Origin: Thiocapsa bogorovii
GTDB lineage: Bacteria; Pseudomonadota; Gammaproteobacteria; Chromatiales; Chromatiaceae
Direction of reading: 5' to 3'
Assembly: GCF_021228795.1 (NCBI RefSeq)
Contig: NZ_CP089309.1
Span: 2,852,001 to 2,916,000 of the forward strand
Length of the DNA stretch: 64,000 bases
The translations under genes were made by a program, and so were the position numbers. The notes under the pieces are model-generated. The model saw nothing but the letters and a program-made list of their open reading frames with translations, searched no databases and was not told the origin of the DNA. Positions 7,312 to 63,279 of the stretch are shown in pieces (the stretch's first letter is position 1; the number at the start of each line of letters is the position of its first letter).

Positions 7312-7520
7312 CTCTAGTCCGGGCCTCTCGACGCGATGCGACCTTCCTGACGCGACGAAGAGCGGCTCCGACGGAAGCCCTCGGCGCTGCTGCCGGAGGT
7401 CGACGTTAAACGGTCTTCAAAACGCTCGATGGGGTCAAGACAGCCTCTTGGGGATTTGGCGGGGCCCCGGGGAGCCCACGTGGTCGATCCCGGGCCGCGC
7501 ACGATGCGGCCCATCCCGAT

Positions 7521-8979
7521 TCAACGCGCCAAATCGGAGCGGCCCATCAACCACTCGTCCACCGCCCTCGCGCATTGACGACCCTCGCGGATCGCCCACA
7601 CCACGAGAGACTGACCGCGCCGCATGTCTCCGGCGCAAAAGACGCCGTCGACCGACGTGTGATAAGCAGCGGACCCGTCGGTGGCGCCCTTGATGTTGCC
7701 GCGCGGGTCGAGCTCGAGACCCGCGCTCTCACGCAGCTCGGCGATCATTCCTTCATGCACGGGATGCACGAAGCCCATGGCCAAGAGCACCAAATCGGCC
7801 TTGAGCTCGCCGACGCTGTCCGGCACGGGCTGCATCTGCCAGCGGCCTCCGTCGGTACGCTCCCAGCGTACTAGCTCGAAACGCAACGCCTTGACCCGAC
7901 CGTTTTCGTCGCCGACGAACGCCTTGGACGCGACGTTCCAAAGTCGCTCGCAACCCTCCTCCTGGGAGCTTGAGGTGCGCAACCGATTCGGCCATTCCGG
8001 CCAGGTTAAGCCCTTGTCCTCCTTCTCCGGCGGTTTGTCCAGGATCTCGATCTGAGTGACCGATTTGGCGCCGTGACGATTGGAGGTTCCAATACAGTCC
8101 GAGCCGGTATCGCCACCACCGATCACGACAACATGCTTGCCGTGAGCGCTGATGAAGTCGTCATCGGGGACATACGAGCCCTGCACACGCTTGCTGTTGC
8201 GCGTCAGGAAGTCCATCGCGAAATGGATCCCGGACAACTCGCGACCGGGCACCTCAAGGTCACGGGGCTTCTCCGATCCACCGGCGAGGACCACCGCGTC
8301 GTACTCCTCGCGCAAACGGGCAACCGGGATGTCCAGTCCGATGTGGGCATTGGTATGAAATTCGACGCCCTCGGTCCGCATCTGGGCCATCCGTCGGTCG
8401 ATCAGCGATTTGCTTAGCTTGAAATCGGGGATGCCGTAGCGCAGCAGCCCGCCGATGCGATCGGACTTCTCGAACAAATGTACCTGGTGACCGGCTCGCG
8501 CGAGCTGCTGGGCGGTCGCCAGCCCGGCCGGCCCGGAACCGACCACGGCGACACGTTTTCCGGTACGTCGCTCCGGGACCAGCGGCTTGATCCAGCCCTC
8601 CGTCCATGCCTTGTCTACGATGGCGCATTCGATGGTCTTGATGGCGACCGGATTATCATCCAAATTCAGAGTGCAGGCGGCCTCGCAGGGCGCAGGACAG
8701 ATGCGTCCGGTGAACTCCGGAAAGTTGTTGGTCGAGTGCAGAACCTCGATCGCGGCCTCCCAGTCATCCCGATAGACCAAGTCGTTCCAGTCCGGGATGA
8801 TGTTGTTGACCGGGCACCCCTGATGACAATAGGGGATTCCGCAGTCCATGCAGCGGGCACCTTGCTCGCTGACCTCGCGATCCGCCAACGGGATCACGAA
8901 CTCGTTGTAATGCACGACGCGATCGGCAGCCGGCTGATAGTGTCGGTCGCGTCGCTCGAACTCAAGGAAACCGGTCGGC

Positions 8980-31934: not shown

Positions 31935-32999
31935 ATGACGCCACTCATCAATGACACCTTCCTTCGTGCAGTGATGCGCGAACCCGTTGAATACACGCCG
32001 GTTTGGATGATGCGCCAAGCAGGCCGCTATCTGCCCGAGTACCGTGCGACGCGCGCGAAGGCCGGCAGCTTCATGGATCTGTGCAAGAATCCGGAGTTGG
32101 CCTGTGAGGTCACGCTGCAGCCGTTGGAGCGTTTTCCGTTGGATGCCGCCATCCTCTTCTCGGACATCCTGACCGTGCCGGATGCGATGGGGCTGGGTCT
32201 GTATTTCGCCGAGGGCGAAGGGCCGCATTTCGAGAGGCCGGTGCGTACGCAGACGGATGTGGATCGGATCGCTGTGCCGGATCCGGAGGACGAGCTGCGT
32301 TACGTGATGGATGCCGTCTCGACCATTCGACGCGAGCTCGCCGGCCGCGTGCCCTTGATCGGCTTCTCCGGCAGCCCCTGGACCCTGGCGACCTACATGG
32401 TCGAGGGCGGAGGCGCGAAGAACTTCTCGCATGCGAAAGGGATGATGTTCGACCGCCCGGACCTCCTCCACGCCCTCTTGGCCAAGACAGCGGATGCGGT
32501 GATCGCTTATCTGAACGCCCAGATTGCACGCGGCGCGCAAGCGACCATGATCTTCGATACCTGGGGCGGTGCGCTGGCGCCGGCCAACTATCGGGAATTC
32601 TCCCTGGCCTACATGCAGCGCGTGGTCGAGGGGTTGAATCGCGAGGCGGAGGGACGCGCCGTACCGGTGATCCTCTTCACCAAGAACGGCGGTCAGTGGC
32701 TGAATCACATGGCCGACACCGGTTGCGACGGACTCGGCGTGGACTGGACGACGGATCTGGCCGACGCGCGCATCCTGACCGGTGACCGTGTCTCGCTGCA
32801 GGGTAATCTCGACCCTTGCGCGCTCTACGCCTCACCCGAGCGGATCCGCGAAGAGGTGGCGCGCGTGCTCGCCAGCTACGGCAAGGGTCCGGGTCATGTC
32901 TTCAACCTCGGGCACGGGATCACTCCGGACGTGAATCCGGAGCATGCCGGGGCGATGGTGGCGGCGGTTCATGAGCTCAGTCGGCCCTACCACGGCTAA
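31935..32999 (+). CDS. hemE: Uroporphyrinogen decarboxylase
   Basis: This 354-residue cytosolic enzyme removes four carboxyl groups from uroporphyrinogen III to give coproporphyrinogen III, on the route to haem and bacteriochlorophyll. Signatures are [16 protein letters not shown] near the N-terminus, the catalytic Asp region [34 protein letters not shown] and the C-terminal [20 protein letters not shown]. The length is standard. The TAA stop (32997-32999) lies in the left arm of an 87-bp repeat. A stable hairpin (33035-33056) follows. It is the only + strand gene immediately right of the candidate origin. Confidence 0.97.
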
Positions 33000-55877: not shown

Positions 55878-57254
55878 ATGACCCGCCGCTCGCTGCGCGC
55901 TCGCCTCTGGATCGGCGCCGCGCTCTCGATCACGCTGGCCCTGGTGGTGTCGGGCCTCGGCCTCTTGACCCTCTTCGAGCGCCATGTCGAGCGCCGTATC
56001 GGCGAGGAGCTGCGGGCGCAGCTCAACCAGCTCGCCGCCGCGGTAACGGTCACGCCGGAGGGCGGCGTTCAGCTCGCGCGCGAGCCTGCCGATCCGCGTT
56101 TCGGACAGCCGTTGAGCGGGCTCTACTGGCAGATCGACGGCGCCGCTGGGTCGGGTCTGCTGCGCTCGCGTTCGCTCTGGGATCATCTGGTGGTGCTGAG
56201 CGACGACGACCTGGATCCGGGCACCGTCCACGCCCATGAGGTCGCGGGTCCCGATGGGCGACCCCTATTGGTCCGCGAGCGCCGGATTCGTCTGCAGACC
56301 GGCGACGGGCTTACATCCTTGCGTCTCATGGTGGGAGTCGATCGAGCGGAGCTCATCGCGGCGCGGGATGCATTCGCGGCCGACATGCTGCCCTATCTTG
56401 CCCTCATCGGGCTGGTCCTGGCGCTGGCGACCTTCGTCCAGATTCAGACCGGTCTCGCACCGCTCGACGCGGTGCGACGCGGCCTCGGGGAGATTCGTGC
56501 CGGCGGGACGCGGCGCCTCGGTGAAACCTACCCGGACGAGGTCATGCCGCTGGTCGGCGAGGTCAACGCCCTGTTGGAGGCCCGTGAGCAGGCGATCGAG
56601 CGTGCCCGGGCCTGGACCGCGGATCTCGCTCACGGACTCAAAACCCCACTCGGCGCGCTGGTGGCGGACGCGCAGCGCTTGCGCGAGGATGGCAATGCAC
56701 TCCTCGCAGATGACCTGGAGCACTTGGCGATGGGCATGCGGCGGCGGGTCGAGCGCGAGCTGGTCCGCGCCCGGTTGCGTTCAGGCGCCGGAGTCCAGCC
56801 GCCGGCCCATGCCGACGTGGTCGAGACCATTCACCGGCTCCTGCGCACGCTCAAACGCACCCCGGAGGGCGCGCGGCTGGACTGGCAGCTGGTCGCGCCG
56901 GCGCAGGCCCGTGCCGCGGTCATCGCCGACGATCTGCTGGAGTTACTGGGCAATCTGCTTGAGAACGCGGCCAAATGGGCGCGAAACGAGGTGGACATCC
57001 GAGTCACTGCCGGCGATCGCATCGAGATCTGCATCGAAGACGACGGTCCCGGCGTACCGGCAGAGCAGACGCCGAGGCTCGGCGAGCGCGGCTTGCGGCT
57101 CGACGAGCGCAGAGAAGGCAGCGGCCTCGGACTCGCGATCGCCCGGGATGTGGTGGATGCCTACGCCGGAGCGCTCGACTTCGAGCGCGCAAGCAAAGGC
57201 GGACTCTCGGTCCGGGTTTTGTTGCCGATGGATCAGCGAATGTCTCCCGGTTGA
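55878..57254 (+). CDS. Sensor histidine kinase (PhoQ/QseC-like)
   Basis: From the ATG at 55878 this is a 458-residue membrane kinase. The longer frame starts inside the upstream repeat and is not supported. Membrane helices are at about 15-35 and 170-190 around a periplasmic domain. The phospho-acceptor His lies in DLAHGLKTPLG, the N box in LLGNLLENAAKWARNEV, G1 in IEDDGPGVP and G2 in GSGLGLAIARDVVD. It works with the response regulator at 55045-55713. Its 3' end overlaps the convergent cytochrome b gene by 22 bp. Confidence 0.93.
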   Translation: MTRRSLRARLWIGAALSITLALVVSGLGLLTLFERHVERRIGEELRAQLNQLAAAVTVTPEGGVQLAREPADPRFGQPLSGLYWQIDGAAGSGLLRSRSLWDHLVVLSDDDLDPGTVHAHEVAGPDGRPLLVRERRIRLQTGDGLTSLRLMVGVDRAELIAARDAFAADMLPYLALIGLVLALATFVQIQTGLAPLDAVRRGLGEIRAGGTRRLGETYPDEVMPLVGEVNALLEAREQAIERARAWTADLAHGLKTPLGALVADAQRLREDGNALLADDLEHLAMGMRRRVERELVRARLRSGAGVQPPAHADVVETIHRLLRTLKRTPEGARLDWQLVAPAQARAAVIADDLLELLGNLLENAAKWARNEVDIRVTAGDRIEICIEDDGPGVPAEQTPRLGERGLRLDERREGSGLGLAIARDVVDAYAGALDFERASKGGLSVRVLLPMDQRMSPG

Positions 57255-57886
57255 TCCTTGCTCAGATAGGCCTCTTCTTCCGGTGTGAGGTCCACCTCGT
57301 CGAAACCGTTGATCATCGGCATCACATGCTCGCGGAAGGAGTGGCCGATGGTCAGCATGTAGACATGGATGAGCACGAACGCGAGGATCATGAAGGCGGC
57401 TGCCGTATGCACCACGGCGACGCCGTTGAGCCATTGCGTGGCGTGGGGCACGTCGCGCCAGGCGAAATAGAAGAGGTAGGCGAGTCCCGTGATCCAGATC
57501 GCCGGGAAGAGCACGATCTTCAGCATGAGATAGGCCAACGCCTGCAAAGGGTTGTGTTTGCGCCAATAGGCCTTGCGGTAGGGATGGCGCTCGCCCTTGA
57601 AGATACCGTAGCTATAGAAGCGCAGCACACCCCACATCCCCGATGCGGAGGGGATGAAGTGGCGCCAGGTGCGGGTCGTAAAGAGCCAGAACACACTGAA
57701 GATCCAGAGCAAGAGCAACGCGAGGGCGGCCGAGGTATGCAGGGTGACGGCCTCTTCGAAGGTGAAGAGATCATGGAAACCGTGCAGCCCGAAGCCGGTG
57801 ATCAGAAGTGCGACGATGAGCAGCATCTGGGACCAGTGCCAGAAGCGCTCGAACAGGCTGAAGATCTTGACGCGGCGTGTGGCCAT
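57233..57886 (-). CDS. Membrane cytochrome b (partner of the octaheme cytochrome)
   Basis: This 217-residue protein has four membrane helices. Haem-ligand His candidates occur in LFERFWHWSQMLLIVALL, VTLHTSAALALLLLW, AVVHTAAAFMILAFVLIHVYM. It is of the cytochrome b561/NiFe-hydrogenase b type and would transfer electrons from the quinol pool to the octaheme protein. Its ATG overlaps the upstream gene's stop (TGATG). The C-terminal tail (VDLTPEEEAYLSKDQPGDI) overlaps the kinase gene by 22 bp on the opposite strand. Confidence 0.88.
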   Translation of the reverse strand: MATRRVKIFSLFERFWHWSQMLLIVALLITGFGLHGFHDLFTFEEAVTLHTSAALALLLLWIFSVFWLFTTRTWRHFIPSASGMWGVLRFYSYGIFKGERHPYRKAYWRKHNPLQALAYLMLKIVLFPAIWITGLAYLFYFAWRDVPHATQWLNGVAVVHTAAAFMILAFVLIHVYMLTIGHSFREHVMPMINGFDEVDLTPEEEAYLSKDQPGDIR

Positions 57887-59541
57887 CAGTGGTGCTCTCC
57901 CTTGGAGCCATGGGACGGCGAGAAGAAGCGAACCAGGCCGTGGATGAGGATGCCGCCCAAGGTGCCGGCGACCAGCAGTGTGCCGATGATGTCGAGCCAA
58001 CGGTTATGGTCCCGGCCCGGCATGTAGACCCCCTCGACGAACTGAAGGCGGCTGTCCTGCGGCGTATGACAGTCGCCGCAACCCAGAGCCTGCTCCTTGG
58101 GTGCGACCATATGGGTGATCGGCCACCAGGAGATGGTCTGGATGAAGCCGAACTCGCCTGAATAGGGCAGTCCGAAATCGGCCATGCCTTTGGCGATGGA
58201 TTTGCCCATGTCGTAGTTGCCCCAGTAGGCGGCATCGTCCTCGCCCCATAGATGGGTATAGACCAGTGTGCCGTTGCCCTTGTCGTAGGGTTGCCAGGTG
58301 TGCATCCGTTTGAACGGCCAGATCCGGGATTTCGGATCCTCGCGCGAGCCGGTGAATCCGTTGATCTCGATGGATTCGGCCTGCGGATCGAATTGGGTGT
58401 CGATGGTGGTATAGAGCATCTGGCCATCGAACCATCCGTATGCCGGCGGGAATTCTTCGTCGTAGGTGAAATTGCCCTTGATCGATTTGTAGGTGTAACG
58501 GTGGTTGCCGTTGCCCTGGATGTAGCCTTCCTCGTGATAGCCTTCGCCGTCCTTGGTCTTGCCGGCGGTGCGCCAATCCCAATCGACGACGGTTGCGACA
58601 CCGCCGCGCGCGATCTCGGGGATATGGCAGGTCTGGCAGGCGATGCTCTGCACGTGATCGTTGAGCTTGAAGCCCGCGAGCGAGTCCACCGGATGCGGCG
58701 AGAGACCGTGACAGGATTCGCAGGTGGCCACGTCGGTGCGCTGGCCCGGCTTGCCCGTGCCCTCGGTATCCTTGGAGACGACTTGGTAACGGCTGCCGGC
58801 CCAAACATGGCGGTTGGTGATGTGGCAGGCCGTGCAGGCGAAGTTCAGACCGTCGACACCCATGTGGACGTCGAGTGTCCTCGGCGGGCTCTTCAAGGCT
58901 GAGGAGAGGTCGCCGTGCTTGACGTTGTCTCCGCCGCCGCCGTTGAAGTGGCAGGCCCCGCAGTTCGCCCGCTGCGGGAGCGTCACGCTTTGTGCGACCG
59001 CGGCCAGATCGATCGGCGGTTTGCCCTCGAACATGACCGAGCAGGCGGCATTCCCGGCGCTGTTCGGTGTCTTGTAATAGGTGCCGGTGGTCTCGTGGCA
59101 GACCAGACAGTCGATGTTGGTCTCGTCGGTGAAGTCGAAGCTCTCGTCCTTCCAACCGTAGCCGGCATGACATTGTGCGCACATCCCCTCGTTGCCGCGG
59201 GAGTTGGTGCAGAAGTTGTTGATCAGATAGCGCTTGCCGAGCTGCTGACCGGTCTCCTCGTTGGTGTAGGACCAGGTCCAGTGGATGTTGCGCATAAAAT
59301 GATCGCCGGTCTCGGTATGGCAGCCGAGACAGGCGACAGTTACTTCCGGCCCGGAGCTGAACGGCCCCTTGAGCTGGTCGAATTTGGTGTGGTCGGCGGT
59401 GCCGCCCTGCAGCGGGCCCGAGACCTGCGGTGGCGGTATATCGGCGGCCGGCGGCGTCGGCCAGGTATCCCGGGCGCCGGAGCTTAGGCTGAAGAGTGCG
59501 GTCAGAAGAAAGCCGGCGACGATGGCGATCGAGGCTCGCAT
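57886..59541 (-). CDS. Octaheme c-type cytochrome, tetrathionate reductase family (OTR-like)
   Basis: This 551-residue periplasmic protein has an N-terminal signal (IAIVAGFLLTALFSLSSGA), eight CXXCH motifs (CLGCH, CAQCH, CLVCH, CGACH, CTACH, CESCH, CQTCH, CGDCH) and a C-terminal anchor helix (IIGTLLVAGTLGGILIHGLV). The number of haems and their order match the OTR family known from Shewanella, which reduces tetrathionate, nitrite and hydroxylamine in vitro. Together with the following cytochrome b it could form a quinol-linked reductase or an oxidase in a sulfur bacterium. The physiological substrate is not known from the sequence. Confidence 0.9.
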   Translation of the reverse strand: MRASIAIVAGFLLTALFSLSSGARDTWPTPPAADIPPPQVSGPLQGGTADHTKFDQLKGPFSSGPEVTVACLGCHTETGDHFMRNIHWTWSYTNEETGQQLGKRYLINNFCTNSRGNEGMCAQCHAGYGWKDESFDFTDETNIDCLVCHETTGTYYKTPNSAGNAACSVMFEGKPPIDLAAVAQSVTLPQRANCGACHFNGGGGDNVKHGDLSSALKSPPRTLDVHMGVDGLNFACTACHITNRHVWAGSRYQVVSKDTEGTGKPGQRTDVATCESCHGLSPHPVDSLAGFKLNDHVQSIACQTCHIPEIARGGVATVVDWDWRTAGKTKDGEGYHEEGYIQGNGNHRYTYKSIKGNFTYDEEFPPAYGWFDGQMLYTTIDTQFDPQAESIEINGFTGSREDPKSRIWPFKRMHTWQPYDKGNGTLVYTHLWGEDDAAYWGNYDMGKSIAKGMADFGLPYSGEFGFIQTISWWPITHMVAPKEQALGCGDCHTPQDSRLQFVEGVYMPGRDHNRWLDIIGTLLVAGTLGGILIHGLVRFFSPSHGSKGEHH

Positions 59542-59772: not shown

Positions 59773-59815
59773 GGTCATATGACCCGAAAATATTTCCGGT
59801 AATATTACCCGGAAA
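59773..59815 (+). promoter_or_regulatory. Tandem 12-bp palindromes (candidate operators)
   Basis: GGTCATATGACC (59773-59784) and GGTAATATTACC (59798-59809) are both perfect palindromes fitting GGTNATATNACC. They are 25 bp apart centre to centre, each is followed by CCG and a short A-run, and the second lies in a larger TTTCC...GGAAA dyad. They precede the corrinoid protein start by about 100 bp. A repressor or activator of the three-gene operon is the simplest reading. Confidence 0.6.
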
Positions 59816-59906
59816 ATGTTGTGAGATTCCCTCTATTATGCAAATGCTTTCGTGCGGGGGGAGTCTTCGGGCGATACTCGTCCGTCACACTCCGGTGGCC
59901 AACATA

Positions 59907-60566
59907 ATGACAATAACGAGCAATGATCCCGTCGAGACCTTCCTCAATGCATTGCTCGCGATGGACCGCGTCGCGGCGAAGCGGGCGCTCGGTGACCCGG
60001 CCTCCGCCGATGTCCGGCTCGATGTCGTCGAGCGCCTGGTCGTGCCGTCCCTCGAGCGTATCGGGGACCTGTGGGAGCGCGGCGAGGTCTCTCTGTCGCA
60101 GGTCTATATGAGCGGTCGGATGTGCGAGGAGATGGTCGACGCCATCCTGCCGCCGTCCGATCCGGCTCGGGTGGATCAGCCTCCGATGGCGATCGCGGTG
60201 CTCGACGACTATCACCTGCTCGGAAAACGTATGGTGTATTCGGTCCTGCGCGCCAGCGGCTACGAGCTGAAGGACTACGGCACGGTCGACGCCGATGCCC
60301 TGGTCGGTCGGGTTGTTCGCGACGGCATCGTCGTGCTGTTGATCTCGGTTCTGATGCTCCCCTCCGCGCTGCATATCAAAAAGGTTCGGGAGGCGCTGGG
60401 CCGGGCCGGTTCTCATCCGTTCATCCTGGTGGGCGGCGCGCCTTTTCGTTTCGACACCGAGCTGTGGCGGGAGGTCGGCGCCGACGCCATGGCGGGCACC
60501 GCGGCCGAGGGCGTCGCCGTGGTGCGTGAGCACCTTGAGAAACGGGCGCAGGAGCATCGCGCATGA
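59907..60566 (+). CDS. Corrinoid (B12-binding) methyltransferase protein
   Basis: From the ATG at 59907 this is a 219-residue cytoplasmic protein. It has the two-domain layout of MtbC/MtaC-type corrinoid proteins: a helical cap (about 1-85) with LWERGEVSLSQVYMSGRMCEEM and a Rossmann B12-binding domain. The latter contains the DxHxxG motif DYHLLG at 101-106, whose H103 would be the lower cobalt ligand. Later SVLMLPSALHIKKVREAL and FILVGGAPFRFD correspond to the expected loops. It would carry a methyl group between methyltransferases. The 3' end overlaps the next gene (ATGA). The longer open frame upstream crosses the operator region and is not supported. Confidence 0.88.
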   Translation: MTITSNDPVETFLNALLAMDRVAAKRALGDPASADVRLDVVERLVVPSLERIGDLWERGEVSLSQVYMSGRMCEEMVDAILPPSDPARVDQPPMAIAVLDDYHLLGKRMVYSVLRASGYELKDYGTVDADALVGRVVRDGIVVLLISVLMLPSALHIKKVREALGRAGSHPFILVGGAPFRFDTELWREVGADAMAGTAAEGVAVVREHLEKRAQEHRA

Positions 60567-61651
60567 GCGCCCGCCCCATGACCTCCCTCGAACGCGTCCT
60601 GACCACGCTTGGCCATCGGGAGCCGGATCGGGTTCCGCTCTTTCTATTGCTCACCATGCACGGCGCCCAAGAGCTCGGGCTCTCCCTCGAGACCTACTTC
60701 TCGCGGCCGGAGTATGTGATCGAAGGTCAGCTGCGTCTGCGTCGCAAGTATCGCAACGATTGCCTCTACACATTCTTTTACGCCTCGGTCGAGACCGAGG
60801 CATGGGGCGGCGATGTCCTCTATACGGACGATGGCCCGCCCAATGCGGGTTGTCCCGTCATTCGGACACCCGAGCAGATCCGCACGCTCGAGCCGCCACG
60901 GGTCGCCGATTGTCCCTGCTTGCTCAAGGTGTTAGAGGCCGCCAGCGGTCTCAAGACCGCAGTGGGCGACGAGGCCCCCATCATCGGCGTGGTCATGTCG
61001 CCGTTCTCGTTGCCGGTGATGCAGATGGGTTTCGAGGCGTACCTCAACCTCATGTTCGAGCAACCGGACCTGTTCGAACACTTGATGCGTCTGAACGAGG
61101 CCTTCTGTATCGAATGGGCGAACGCCCAGTTGGCGGCGGGTGCCACGGCCATCTGTTATTTCGACCCGGTTTCGTCCTCGACCATCGTCTCGCCCGAGCA
61201 CTTTCGCCGGACCGGACTTCAGGTCGCGATGCGCACCCTGGCCGGGATCAAGGGTCCGGTGGCGATGCATTTCGCATCCGGTCGCTGTGCGCCGATCCTG
61301 GATGATCTTCCCCGCACCGGTGCGGCCGTCATCGGAGTCAGCATGCTCGACGATCTCGCCGCCCTCAAGCAACGAGCGGCCGGTAAGGTCTCCTTGCTCG
61401 GTAACCTCAACGGCGTGGAGATGCGTCGTTGGACACAGGAGCAGGCCGAGGCACAGGTCAAGGCGGCGATCGCCTCGGCCGGCCACGGCGGCGGATTCAT
61501 CCTGTCCGACAACCACGGCGAGATTCCCTTCCAGGTTCCGGAAGAGACGCTGCTGGCCATCTCCGAGGCGGTCCATCGCTGGGGAACCTATCCGCTAGCG
61601 GTTTCCGGGGAGCACGCAACCTCTTCGCCCCTGAAGGACCCCCGGAGCTGA
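60563..61651 (+). CDS. UroD/MtbA-family methyltransferase (divergent zinc site)
   Basis: This 362-residue TIM-barrel protein belongs to the family of uroporphyrinogen decarboxylase and of MtaA/MtbA methylcobamide methyltransferases. The N-terminal LGHREPDRVPLFLLLTMHGAQELG and the PIIGVVMSPFSLPVMQMG segment are typical. In MtaA-type enzymes zinc is bound by HxC and a later cysteine. Here the equivalent positions are H236-F237-A238 and, near residue 316, SDNHGE, so both expected cysteines are absent, although C242 lies six residues after H236. It is unlikely to be the true HemE, because hemE is present elsewhere and this gene is locked to a corrinoid protein by an ATGA overlap. Acceptor and methyl donor are unknown. 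Confidence 0.8.
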   Translation: MSARPMTSLERVLTTLGHREPDRVPLFLLLTMHGAQELGLSLETYFSRPEYVIEGQLRLRRKYRNDCLYTFFYASVETEAWGGDVLYTDDGPPNAGCPVIRTPEQIRTLEPPRVADCPCLLKVLEAASGLKTAVGDEAPIIGVVMSPFSLPVMQMGFEAYLNLMFEQPDLFEHLMRLNEAFCIEWANAQLAAGATAICYFDPVSSSTIVSPEHFRRTGLQVAMRTLAGIKGPVAMHFASGRCAPILDDLPRTGAAVIGVSMLDDLAALKQRAAGKVSLLGNLNGVEMRRWTQEQAEAQVKAAIASAGHGGGFILSDNHGEIPFQVPEETLLAISEAVHRWGTYPLAVSGEHATSSPLKDPRS

Positions 61652-61653
61652 CC

Positions 61654-63279
61654 GTGCCGGACACGGTGTGCCTGAGGGTCTGCAGCTATTTTCGAGGCGA
61701 TGTCGAGACCGCTCTGGCCGGCCTCGGCGAGGAGGGTGTGCGCGTCCAGGCTTACCCGGCCGTTTGCACCCTGCGTCAGGGACGGTGCAACCTCGCGGAA
61801 GCGCGCGAGACGCCGCCACCCGAGGGCTATGACGGCGCTTTGGTGCTTCTCGGGTGCGAAACCGAAACGCGCGCGGCTCCGCTGGATCCACGCGTGCATC
61901 TGGTGAAGCTTGATCACTGCGTTTACCTCTTAGCCGGGCGCGACGTCTTGGAGCCCGAGATGCAGGCCGGTGCGTATCTCGTCACGGCCGGCTGGATCAA
62001 GCAGTGGCGCGAGCATTTGCGCGTGATGGGCTTCGATCGGGAAACGGCGGGGCAGTTTTTCCGCGAATGTACGCGCGAGCTCCTGCTCCTGGATACGGGC
62101 AACGATGCGCATGCCGTCGAGGAGCTCGAGGCGATGGGGCGGTATTTAGGTGTGCCGTGCCGCAGCCGCTATGTCGGATTGGACTATCTGAAGCTCTTTC
62201 TCTCGGGTGCTATCGCCAAGTGGCGCCATCTCGCAGCAGAGTCGAAAACCCGCGAGGTCCTGGCCCAGGCCAACCGTAAGGTCGCCGATTACGCCATGGC
62301 GTTCGACCTGCTCGTTCGCCTCTCGCACATCACCGACGAGGGGGCCACGATCGCGGCGATTCAGGAGCTCTTCGCGATGCTCTTCGGGTGCACCAACCTG
62401 GTGTACGCCCAGGTGGAGGAGGGGCGGGTCAGGGAGATCTTCGCCGCGGAGGAGCGACCGCAGGACCGACTCGATCTGCAGCAGGCGCTCGATGCCCTGC
62501 ATGAGGGCTATCTGATCATGCCGTCCGGGAACGGTTTTTTCCTCCGGATCGACTACCGCGATGCTGTCTTGGGCCTGATGTTGGTGCGCGAGATCCCGTT
62601 TCCCGCCTATCGGGATCAATATCTGAATCTCGGGCTGGCGATCTCCAATCTCTGCGGTTTGGCGATCTCCAACGCACGCACCTTCGTGAAGCTTCAGGAG
62701 ACCGAGCAGAACCTGCGCCGAGAGCGCGATATCAATGCTGGGCTCTTCGAGCAGGTGCGGGCCCTGGCCGATACGGATCCCCTCACCGAGCTGCTCAACC
62801 GCCGTCGCTTCTCGGAGCTGGCGGAGGCCGAGTTCGCGCGTGCCAAGCGGTTTTCCAACCCGATCGCCGTGATCATGCTCGACATCGATCACTTCAAGCG
62901 CGTCAACGATACCTATGGTCACGGTGTCGGCGATCAGGTGCTCAAGGCGATTGCCGAGCGGCTACGCGTCGTTCGGGTGTCGGACATCCTGGCCCGGTAC
63001 GGGGGCGAGGAGCTGGTGGCGCTGTGCCCCGAGACAAACGCCCAAGAGGCCGAGCGACTCGCCGAGCGACTGCGCATGGCGCTGCGCGAGCACGCCATCG
63101 AGACCACGGAGGGTCCGATCCCGATCACGGCGAGCATCGGTGTGGCGACGCTCGAGGACGATGTCGACCATCTCGACGATCTCGTCGATCGTGCCGACCA
63201 GGCGCTCTATGCCGCGAAAACCGCGGGGCGTGATTGCGTTCGGGTCTACGGGAGGAACGCCCACATCCCCGAGTCCTGA
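61654..63279 (+). CDS. DUF1638-like/GAF-like/GGDEF diguanylate cyclase
   Basis: A GTG start at 61654, two bases after the preceding TGA, gives 541 residues. The N-terminal ~190 residues (LVLLGCETETRAAPLD, YLVTAGWIKQWREHLRVMG, LLLLDTGNDAHAVEELEAMG and VGLDYLKLFLSG) resemble DUF1638, a family often found beside corrinoid methyltransferases. A GAF-like sensory segment spans about 225-350. A GGDEF domain follows, with active site GGEEL at 450-454 and the inhibitory RxxD motif (RVSD) five residues before it, so c-di-GMP synthesis is expected to be active and feedback-inhibited. The same-strand, two-base spacing to the methyltransferase indicates one operon. Confidence 0.88.
   Translation: MPDTVCLRVCSYFRGDVETALAGLGEEGVRVQAYPAVCTLRQGRCNLAEARETPPPEGYDGALVLLGCETETRAAPLDPRVHLVKLDHCVYLLAGRDVLEPEMQAGAYLVTAGWIKQWREHLRVMGFDRETAGQFFRECTRELLLLDTGNDAHAVEELEAMGRYLGVPCRSRYVGLDYLKLFLSGAIAKWRHLAAESKTREVLAQANRKVADYAMAFDLLVRLSHITDEGATIAAIQELFAMLFGCTNLVYAQVEEGRVREIFAAEERPQDRLDLQQALDALHEGYLIMPSGNGFFLRIDYRDAVLGLMLVREIPFPAYRDQYLNLGLAISNLCGLAISNARTFVKLQETEQNLRRERDINAGLFEQVRALADTDPLTELLNRRRFSELAEAEFARAKRFSNPIAVIMLDIDHFKRVNDTYGHGVGDQVLKAIAERLRVVRVSDILARYGGEELVALCPETNAQEAERLAERLRMALREHAIETTEGPIPITASIGVATLEDDVDHLDDLVDRADQALYAAKTAGRDCVRVYGRNAHIPES

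Follow-up and report, generated by a model that had tools for sequence, protein, structure and literature searches.

What are the genes for a corrinoid protein and a methyltransferase doing next to the gene for a diguanylate cyclase? This question is raised by a three-gene operon of Thiocapsa bogorovii, located in a stretch of 64,000 nucleotides (NCBI RefSeq assembly GCF_021228795.1, contig NZ_CP089309.1, positions 2,852,001 to 2,916,000 of the forward strand), hereafter called the window, of a genome of 5.65 Mb in a single contig. The operon encodes a corrinoid-binding protein, a methyltransferase of the UroD superfamily and a third protein with DUF1638, GAF-like and GGDEF domains. From the sequences compared here, the view that these genes form a signalling module is well supported. 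We consider it probable that they constitute a cassette dedicated to sensing: the DUF1638-GAF part would read the methylation or redox state of the corrinoid and transmit it to outputs acting through cyclic diguanosine monophosphate (c-di-GMP) or a phosphorelay.

The original prediction, made from the DNA letters alone, described three overlapping or abutting genes. This is confirmed for 59907-63279 (+): the UroD gene shares 4 bp with the corrinoid gene and the third gene begins 2 bp past the UroD gene. The start proposed at 59773 has to be corrected, as it lies upstream of the gene, which begins with the ATG at 59907. This ATG is favoured because an in-frame stop upstream in T. marina (locus L066, ORF, for open reading frame, 7342-8004) caps the corrinoid protein at about 220 aa, and because the numbering of the DYHLLG motif, 101-106 as predicted, fits it too. 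The wording "operon fused to a diguanylate cyclase" is loose, since it applies to the DUF1638 protein alone; the other two proteins have genes of their own. The genome contains a single DUF1638 gene and two UroD genes, the second of which (window 31935-32999) is presumably HemE. Together with the gene order kept in other genomes, this argues that the operon is not a chance arrangement. The features are listed in Table 1.

Table 1. Features of the three-gene operon, in coordinates of the window.
Feature	Position	Strand	Basis or remark
Corrinoid-binding protein (methionine-synthase-type cap and B12-binding domain), 219 aa	59907..60566	+	PF02607, PF02310; ATG start, stop included
DYHLLG, DxHxxG lower-ligand motif	60207..60224	+	D101, H103, G106 in 80/80 sequences with a residue there (81 aligned)
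UroD-superfamily corrinoid methyltransferase, 362 aa	60563..61651	+	PF01208
HFASG (H236-G240), in the place of the MtaA HxCG zinc motif	61268..61282	+	His kept, Cys not; HICG of 4ay7 aligns, with one-residue uncertainty
NHGEIP (N317-P322); H318 aligns with a Cys of MtaA	61511..61528	+	Alignment to 4ay7
DUF1638-GAF-GGDEF protein, 541 aa, GTG start	61654..63279	+	Pfam, AlphaFold model, Foldseek
DUF1638 domain, residues 1-175, with Cys10, Cys38, Cys68, Cys89	61654..62178	+	PF07796; limits from model
Long helix joining DUF1638 to GAF, residues 177-224	62182..62325	+	AlphaFold model, DSSP
GAF-fold domain, about residues 225-343	62326..62682	+	Foldseek; limits from secondary structure
Signalling helix from GAF to GGDEF, residues 317-361	62602..62736	+	AlphaFold model
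GGDEF diguanylate cyclase domain, residues 372-527	62767..63234	+	PF00990, E about 7.5e-48
RVSD inhibitory site (441-444) and GGEEL active-site motif (450-454)	62974..63015	+	Sequence motifs

The co-occurrence of the three genes extends far outside Thiocapsa. A scan of 84,980 GTDB species genomes with UroD alone as query gave 356 relatives. Loci were retrieved for the best 80, ranked by how close they are to the query; all counts out of 80 and the phylum tally refer to these. The scan patterns L[SA]DNHGEI and A[TN]AI[CT]YFD bias the set towards those motifs, and the seed UroDs came from loci first located via the third protein, so that co-occurrence is partly by construction in the seeds, not in the 80. 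The corrinoid gene lies directly upstream of UroD in 80/80 loci and the third gene downstream in 76/80; L075, L090 and L125, three of the loci without it, end just past UroD at a contig edge. By look-up, the loci belong to nine bacterial phyla and one archaeal phylum, with four records unplaced. The archaeal record (L096, a binned contig) may be contamination. Closer to home, a genus and family search with the third protein covered 56 genomes, the window's own and 55 relatives. Nine of 11 Thiocapsa genomes have it, the copy of G003 being cut by a contig end. The two that lack it also lack this UroD (29% match in G006, none in G009), which suggests that the genes of the cassette come and go together. 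Among the matches listed, the other genera of the family contributed one genome, Rhabdochromatium marinum (L048, same as L099), with the same three-gene order and a hybrid kinase, HisKA-HATPase-REC-Hpt, in place of GGDEF. The assembly G008 (10.4 Mb in 40 contigs, one of 5.07 Mb) is about twice the size of its relatives and may hold two genomes.

At the class level, a profile of the DUF1638-GAF part matched 8/369 genomes, own included, and in the other seven (8 loci) a corrinoid gene and UroD stand beside every match. Four of these eight third proteins carry histidine kinase domains and that of L062 a PAS part only, while L063 encodes DUF1638 alone, near a contig end, and L064 and L065 have a free-standing DUF1638. 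A REC-GGDEF protein accompanies the cassette in L060 and a REC-PAS-GGDEF protein in L061; the routes to c-di-GMP may thus include two-component relay as well as direct fusion. L060 (2813-6307) also presents two tandem corrinoid-UroD pairs ahead of one DUF1638-GAF-kinase.

In the 80 loci, the third protein ends in a GGDEF domain in 12 cases and in a histidine kinase in 42 (41 by Pfam plus L073 in a split frame), has no output domain in 15, is cut by the contig in 7 and is missing in 4. The predicted corrinoid-to-c-di-GMP link is therefore upheld in part: the tie between methyl transfer and signalling is well supported, but c-di-GMP is one output among others, and a minority one. Versions without an output domain tend to have signalling genes nearby, with a same-strand signalling ORF within 3 kb in 12/15 output-less loci, 26/42 kinase loci, 3/13 GGDEF-labelled loci (L069 included) and 2/10 cut or third-less loci. 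These neighbour domains, and part of the output calls, were assigned with small home-made profiles of 2-7 seeds each. When the GGDEF label is traced on a tree of the UroDs, 5 changes are required, and starred branches force no fewer than 3 of them; this is a quick tree, in which 41/78 inner branches are open, the L068 row is 18% filled and the GGDEF label of L069 is assumed, its contig ending ahead of the output domain. For the remaining neighbours, 766 ORFs of at least 140 aa from the 80 loci were clustered after removal of the corrinoid, third and signalling ORFs. No family beyond the cassette and signalling proteins was present in more than 6/80 loci, the only larger cluster being UroD itself (71 loci).

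The architecture of the third protein is compatible with a sensor. Its DUF1638-like N-terminus, a point on which the prediction could have failed, is recognized by PF07796 with E=2.9e-13 (50.5 bits versus a cut-off of 27). Pfam is silent on the proposed GAF-like part of the window protein, and detects GAF in only 2/77 third proteins. The AlphaFold model (residues 1-362, alignment of 48 sequences, mean pLDDT 91.5) nevertheless shows DUF1638 as an alpha/beta domain, joined by a helix to a GAF-like domain from which another helix runs into GGDEF. Foldseek against the PDB matched it to many GAF domains, among them those of KdpD (4y2f, TMt 0.72) and 4g3k (TMt 0.68), so that model and search agree on a GAF fold next to long signalling helices. 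For the DUF1638 half no convincing structural match was seen among 50 of the 1462 Foldseek matches, and no solved DUF1638 structure was found by sequence (best E 0.52, unrelated). DUF1638 is matched at E <= 0.001 in 58/77 third proteins, some relatives falling under the gathering cut-off. The predicted GGEEL cyclase with its RxxD inhibitory site was found, and the window protein has GGEEL, MLDIDHFK and RVSD. In the direct fusions (n=13, window protein included) GG[DE]E and the metal-binding DxD are present in 13/13 and RxxD in 12/13. Judged by its motifs, the Thiocapsa output domain is predicted to be a diguanylate cyclase whose sites for catalysis and product inhibition are intact; because these are intact, the signal would be reported as c-di-GMP in this organism.

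The corrinoid protein has the composition of the methyltransferase partners MtbC, MtaC and MtgC, with a cap (Pfam B12-binding_2, E=3.9e-11) and a B12-binding domain (E=1.4e-14) that includes DxHxxG. By sequence, the nearest solved chain is the monomethylamine corrinoid protein 3ezx (E 8.6e-13), and the protein remains under the cut-off of all 10 NCBIfam models matched. It also matches, with E 2.5e-9, the solved chain 8j2y of a GGDEF protein, which we take to be AbDPcob, to our knowledge the closest characterised link from B12 to a cyclase. This raises the possibility of a light sensor working by cobalt-carbon photolysis, as CarH or the photocobilins do. Thiocapsa and Oscillochloris are phototrophs, which would suit such a function, but most of the host groups are not, as far as we know, phototrophic. 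The W and EH residues at CarH spacing (W-x9-EH) are absent from 81/81 corrinoid proteins, and the two traits of a B12 photoreceptor, EH after Trp and a B12 domain in the output chain, are both lacking. According to PMC11796333, such residues mark the cobalamin domains that respond to light. In AbDPcob (PMC10979010) a diguanylate cyclase is indeed joined to a B12 photoreceptor; the main text of that article does not contain the terms "methyltransferase" or "uroporphyrinogen". In AbDPcob, as in CarH, a B12-binding domain controls the output, but it does so within the same chain, binds adenosylcobalamin (AdoCbl) and senses light, whereas the Thiocapsa corrinoid protein is encoded by a separate gene, lacks W-x9-EH and is accompanied by a UroD methyltransferase and DUF1638-GAF. 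Light sensing by AdoCbl was rejected because the light-responsive residues are missing, and we regard a light sensor of any such kind as extremely unlikely.

The second gene was correctly predicted to encode a UroD-type methyltransferase (URO-D, E=2.7e-59). Its model (pLDDT 91.8) has MtaA 4ay7 as best PDB fold match (TMt 0.84), although it scores 100.5 bits with the MtaA/CmuA model TIGR01463, for which the NCBIfam cut-off is 235.4. The closest UroD, from T. marina, is 93% identical. In the 80 UroDs the HFASG segment is conserved at H236 (79/80), A238 (80/80) and S239 (76/80), while H318, G319 and E320 are kept in 80/80. HGEIP is also present in 10/10 full-length relatives lacking a match to the scan pattern that covers part of this motif; in an eleventh relative without that match, L068, the frame is broken ahead of the motif. 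The Cys of MtaA opposite H318 is the third zinc ligand. A His-Cys-Cys zinc site is thus not found in this UroD, which has Ala/Ser around the position of the first Cys and His318 at the second. In this superfamily S-methyltransferases have a His-Cys-Cys site, whereas in O-methyltransferases one Cys or both give way to carboxylates or to residues that do not coordinate the metal, as stated in PMC10418091. By its residues, then, UroD is not an ordinary thiol methyltransferase, and the kept His with both Cys replaced would suggest, by the above rule, a non-thiol methyl donor; an O-methyl compound is a first guess. Many UroD positions are nearly invariant in the alignment of relatives, which suggests that the enzyme is probably still at work. 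In L068 and L042 (Thiocapsa roseopersicina DSM 217) the UroD frame is broken near residue 62-64 while the neighbours match in full, which reflects either a pseudogene or a sequence error.

Could the cassette then simply serve methyl metabolism? The genomes of 11 Thiocapsa (the window's included) and of Rhabdochromatium were searched for RACo/RamA, MttB and MtaB domains, among the substrate methyltransferase families only the last two being covered, and each was absent from 12/12 genomes; the control, Methanosarcina acetivorans, was positive for RACo, MttB and MtaB. The claim that no methyltransferase of the MtaB/MttB type is near is thus borne out genome-wide, and the pairing of MttB or MtaB with RamA that marks catabolic corrinoid methyltransferase systems is not found. 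The MetH activation domain PF02965 occurs in 12/12 genomes, one as a fragment. With this domain present throughout and RamA absent, a role in methionine-synthase reactivation in Thiocapsa was rejected, and neither a catabolic demethylase of the type searched for nor MetH repair explains the cassette here. A metabolic demethylase, with the GGDEF or kinase domain merely regulating, or accidentally fused to, a corrinoid-reactivating DUF1638 protein, would fit the free-standing DUF1638 found with RamA, a corrinoid protein and UroD in L065 and L064, and the DUF1638 gene required for methionine synthesis in Phaeobacter (PMC5764234). Against it stand the missing RACo, MttB and MtaB and the fact that MetH has its own activation domain, and an accident is further opposed by a GGDEF label that changes at least 3 times along the tree and by the kinases beside output-less versions. 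We find this explanation quite improbable.

The L065 set is likely the ancestral arrangement. In L064 (2730-10969) RamA, a corrinoid protein, a distant UroD (27%) and free-standing DUF1638 stand ahead of two signalling proteins, a histidine kinase and one of the type REC-PAS-GGDEF-EAL; this is a second lineage with corrinoid methyl transfer beside c-di-GMP turnover. Similar operons are known, as in the split MetH of Phaeobacter and the glycine betaine system of Ruegeria, where DUF1638 is tied to a corrinoid protein by genetics or by prediction (PMC5764234, PMC12478193). Price 2018 (PMC5764234) reported that the DUF1638 gene beside the split-MetH corrinoid gene is needed for methionine synthesis and offered no specific function, and the Ruegeria article (PMC12478193) repeats a predicted role in recharging cobalamin. 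These operons and L065 share with the cassette an adjacent corrinoid protein and DUF1638, and in L065 also UroD. They differ in that RamA is present and methyl metabolism is served, whereas here RamA is absent from the 12 genomes and DUF1638 is fused to GAF and outputs. The UroDs of L064 and L065 are moreover only 27-29% identical to the cassette UroD.

The corrinoid protein could instead be read as apo or loaded form, so that the system would report B12 status. The original prediction named such a corrinoid-supply sensor as an alternative, and the intact DxHxxG motif agrees with it, but a conserved methyltransferase would not be needed for this purpose. The absence of any further non-signalling family from more than 6/80 loci also speaks against it, as does the result that no Rfam family reached its gathering score in the window, the cobalamin riboswitch being among those covered. 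A sensor of corrinoid supply therefore seems to us scarcely probable.

A more serious competitor is a redox or oxygen sensor, in which the corrinoid would be kept as Co(I)/Co(II), its oxidation by O2 or another oxidant would be the signal, and UroD with its methyl donor would only set the resting state; the Cys residues of DUF1638 may bind a metal or an iron-sulfur cluster. Within the 48 DUF1638-GAF sequences Cys10 is conserved in 47, Cys38 in 46, Cys89 in 45 and the column adjoining Cys68 of the window in 41, and the free-standing DUF1638 of L064 and L065 has Cys near three of the four positions. From this pattern, a metal or iron-sulfur site is possible. The lack of RamA in 12 genomes means that oxidised corrinoid could persist as a signal. 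The hosts include Thiocapsa, Beggiatoa relatives, magnetotactic bacteria, sulfate reducers and Methylobacter, many of which live in redox gradients, although this argument from ecology rests on a host list without a control set. What a redox sensor leaves unexplained is the near-invariant UroD and the very presence of a methyltransferase gene, and we judge it unlikely.

The sensory cassette, as we see it, would work in four steps. The UroD-type enzyme would shuttle a methyl group to or from the corrinoid cobalt, the other partner being a small molecule that gives or takes it. DUF1638, a free-standing relative of which is required for making methionine with a split corrinoid methyltransferase and is predicted to assist in re-reducing cobalt, would dock on the corrinoid protein and sense its methylated, unmethylated or oxidised state, perhaps via the conserved Cys. 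According to the predicted architecture, this state could then pass through the long helix to GAF and through the second signalling helix to the output domain. The output in Thiocapsa, predicted to be a diguanylate cyclase, would deliver the signal as c-di-GMP, and in other lineages histidine kinases and phosphorelay domains would take its place. We infer from the above data the corrinoid state as the signal, DUF1638-GAF as its reader and a non-thiol methyl donor. In its most specific form, which we advance tentatively, the cassette would be a methyl-group sensor: methylation of cobalt by an environmental non-thiol donor, such as methanol or a methoxy compound, would be read by DUF1638-GAF, the ligand being sampled by reaction. 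A lead in this direction comes from plasmid pAZKH of Azoarcus sp. KH32C (L146, 7372-12521), the sole plasmid with this UroD at E <= 1e-60 among 72,556 plasmid records. A kinase-output cassette is located there between formylmethanofuran-dehydrogenase and quinoprotein-dehydrogenase-associated genes, and these neighbours hint at a C1 signal such as methanol; the GGDEF form, moreover, occurs in two Methylobacter genomes. Apart from an HD-domain protein, the non-signalling neighbours (fhc, quinoprotein-associated and others) had no match in 97 other loci, a search in which some genomes figure twice and the fhcC and substrate-binding protein queries are cut fragments of unchecked reading frame. A general link to methanol or C1 oxidation was set aside because these genes were not found at the other loci, and the Azoarcus context remains a lead.

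Several observations weigh against a sensory cassette read by DUF1638. At E <= 0.001, 19/77 third proteins have no DUF1638 match, and of five of the 15 output-less third proteins scanned singly four are without the domain and one (L128) has it. DUF1638 is therefore dispensable, and docking or sensing may in truth fall to GAF. In the complete locus L072 the corrinoid and UroD genes are present, with another gene in the place of the third, and 16/42 kinase loci have no second signalling ORF nearby. The strong conservation of UroD could equally mean a role in metabolic turnover. Most of the 80 locus records, finally, carry metagenome-assembly titles. Among the proteins without DUF1638, those of L076 (9005-9793) and L145 (9037-9834) end in a Cys-containing tail, SGLIPICSHCKK(I/V)RDD..GYWNQVEAYI, and have no output domain.

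Two further known systems resemble the cassette in part. The type 1 mlp clusters of Kountz and Balskus (PMC10418091) are likewise widespread in bacteria and combine UroD methyltransferases with a corrinoid protein. As there described, they include several Mlps, a RACE protein, a His-Cys-Cys zinc site and sulfur and selenium genes, whereas the cassette has as a rule one UroD, with the zinc-site Cys replaced, and signalling genes as recurrent neighbours. The terms DUF1638, histidine kinase, GGDEF, sensor and signal were not found in the main text of that article. The mec cassette of dichloromethane degraders comprises the UroD-type MecE, a corrinoid protein, the likely reactivation proteins MecGH and a two-component system, whose kinase MecA has a PocR domain and may regulate the catabolic cassette (PMC9768040). 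Here, in contrast, the conserved partner of the sensor is the corrinoid-UroD pair itself, and among the neighbours in the 80 loci no family of catabolic genes was seen to recur. A description of the cassette was not found in the literature searched, which covered few subscription journals and in which most candidates were judged by the title or the start of the abstract. On genomic evidence, what appears to be new is the input module, the outputs being ordinary two-component and c-di-GMP parts. No tRNA was found in the window. Next to the operon, in divergent orientation, lie a gene rich in CxxCH haem motifs and a putative cytochrome-b-like gene (57233-59541, read by eye); the family of the CxxCH-rich neighbour occurs only in the 6 Thiocapsa loci among the 80.

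If the methyl-group sensor is real, it would represent an undescribed, phylum-spanning class of sensors with a working corrinoid methyltransferase pair as detector, probably charged by a non-thiol donor. Some of the genes that bear the annotation "uroporphyrinogen decarboxylase family protein", as in Azoarcus, would then be parts of a sensor rather than evidence of methylotrophy. The long-standing question of the role of DUF1638 would become testable via an easy c-di-GMP read-out. Bacteria of no fewer than nine phyla, counted in the 80 loci, would use organometallic methyl-transfer chemistry as a sense.

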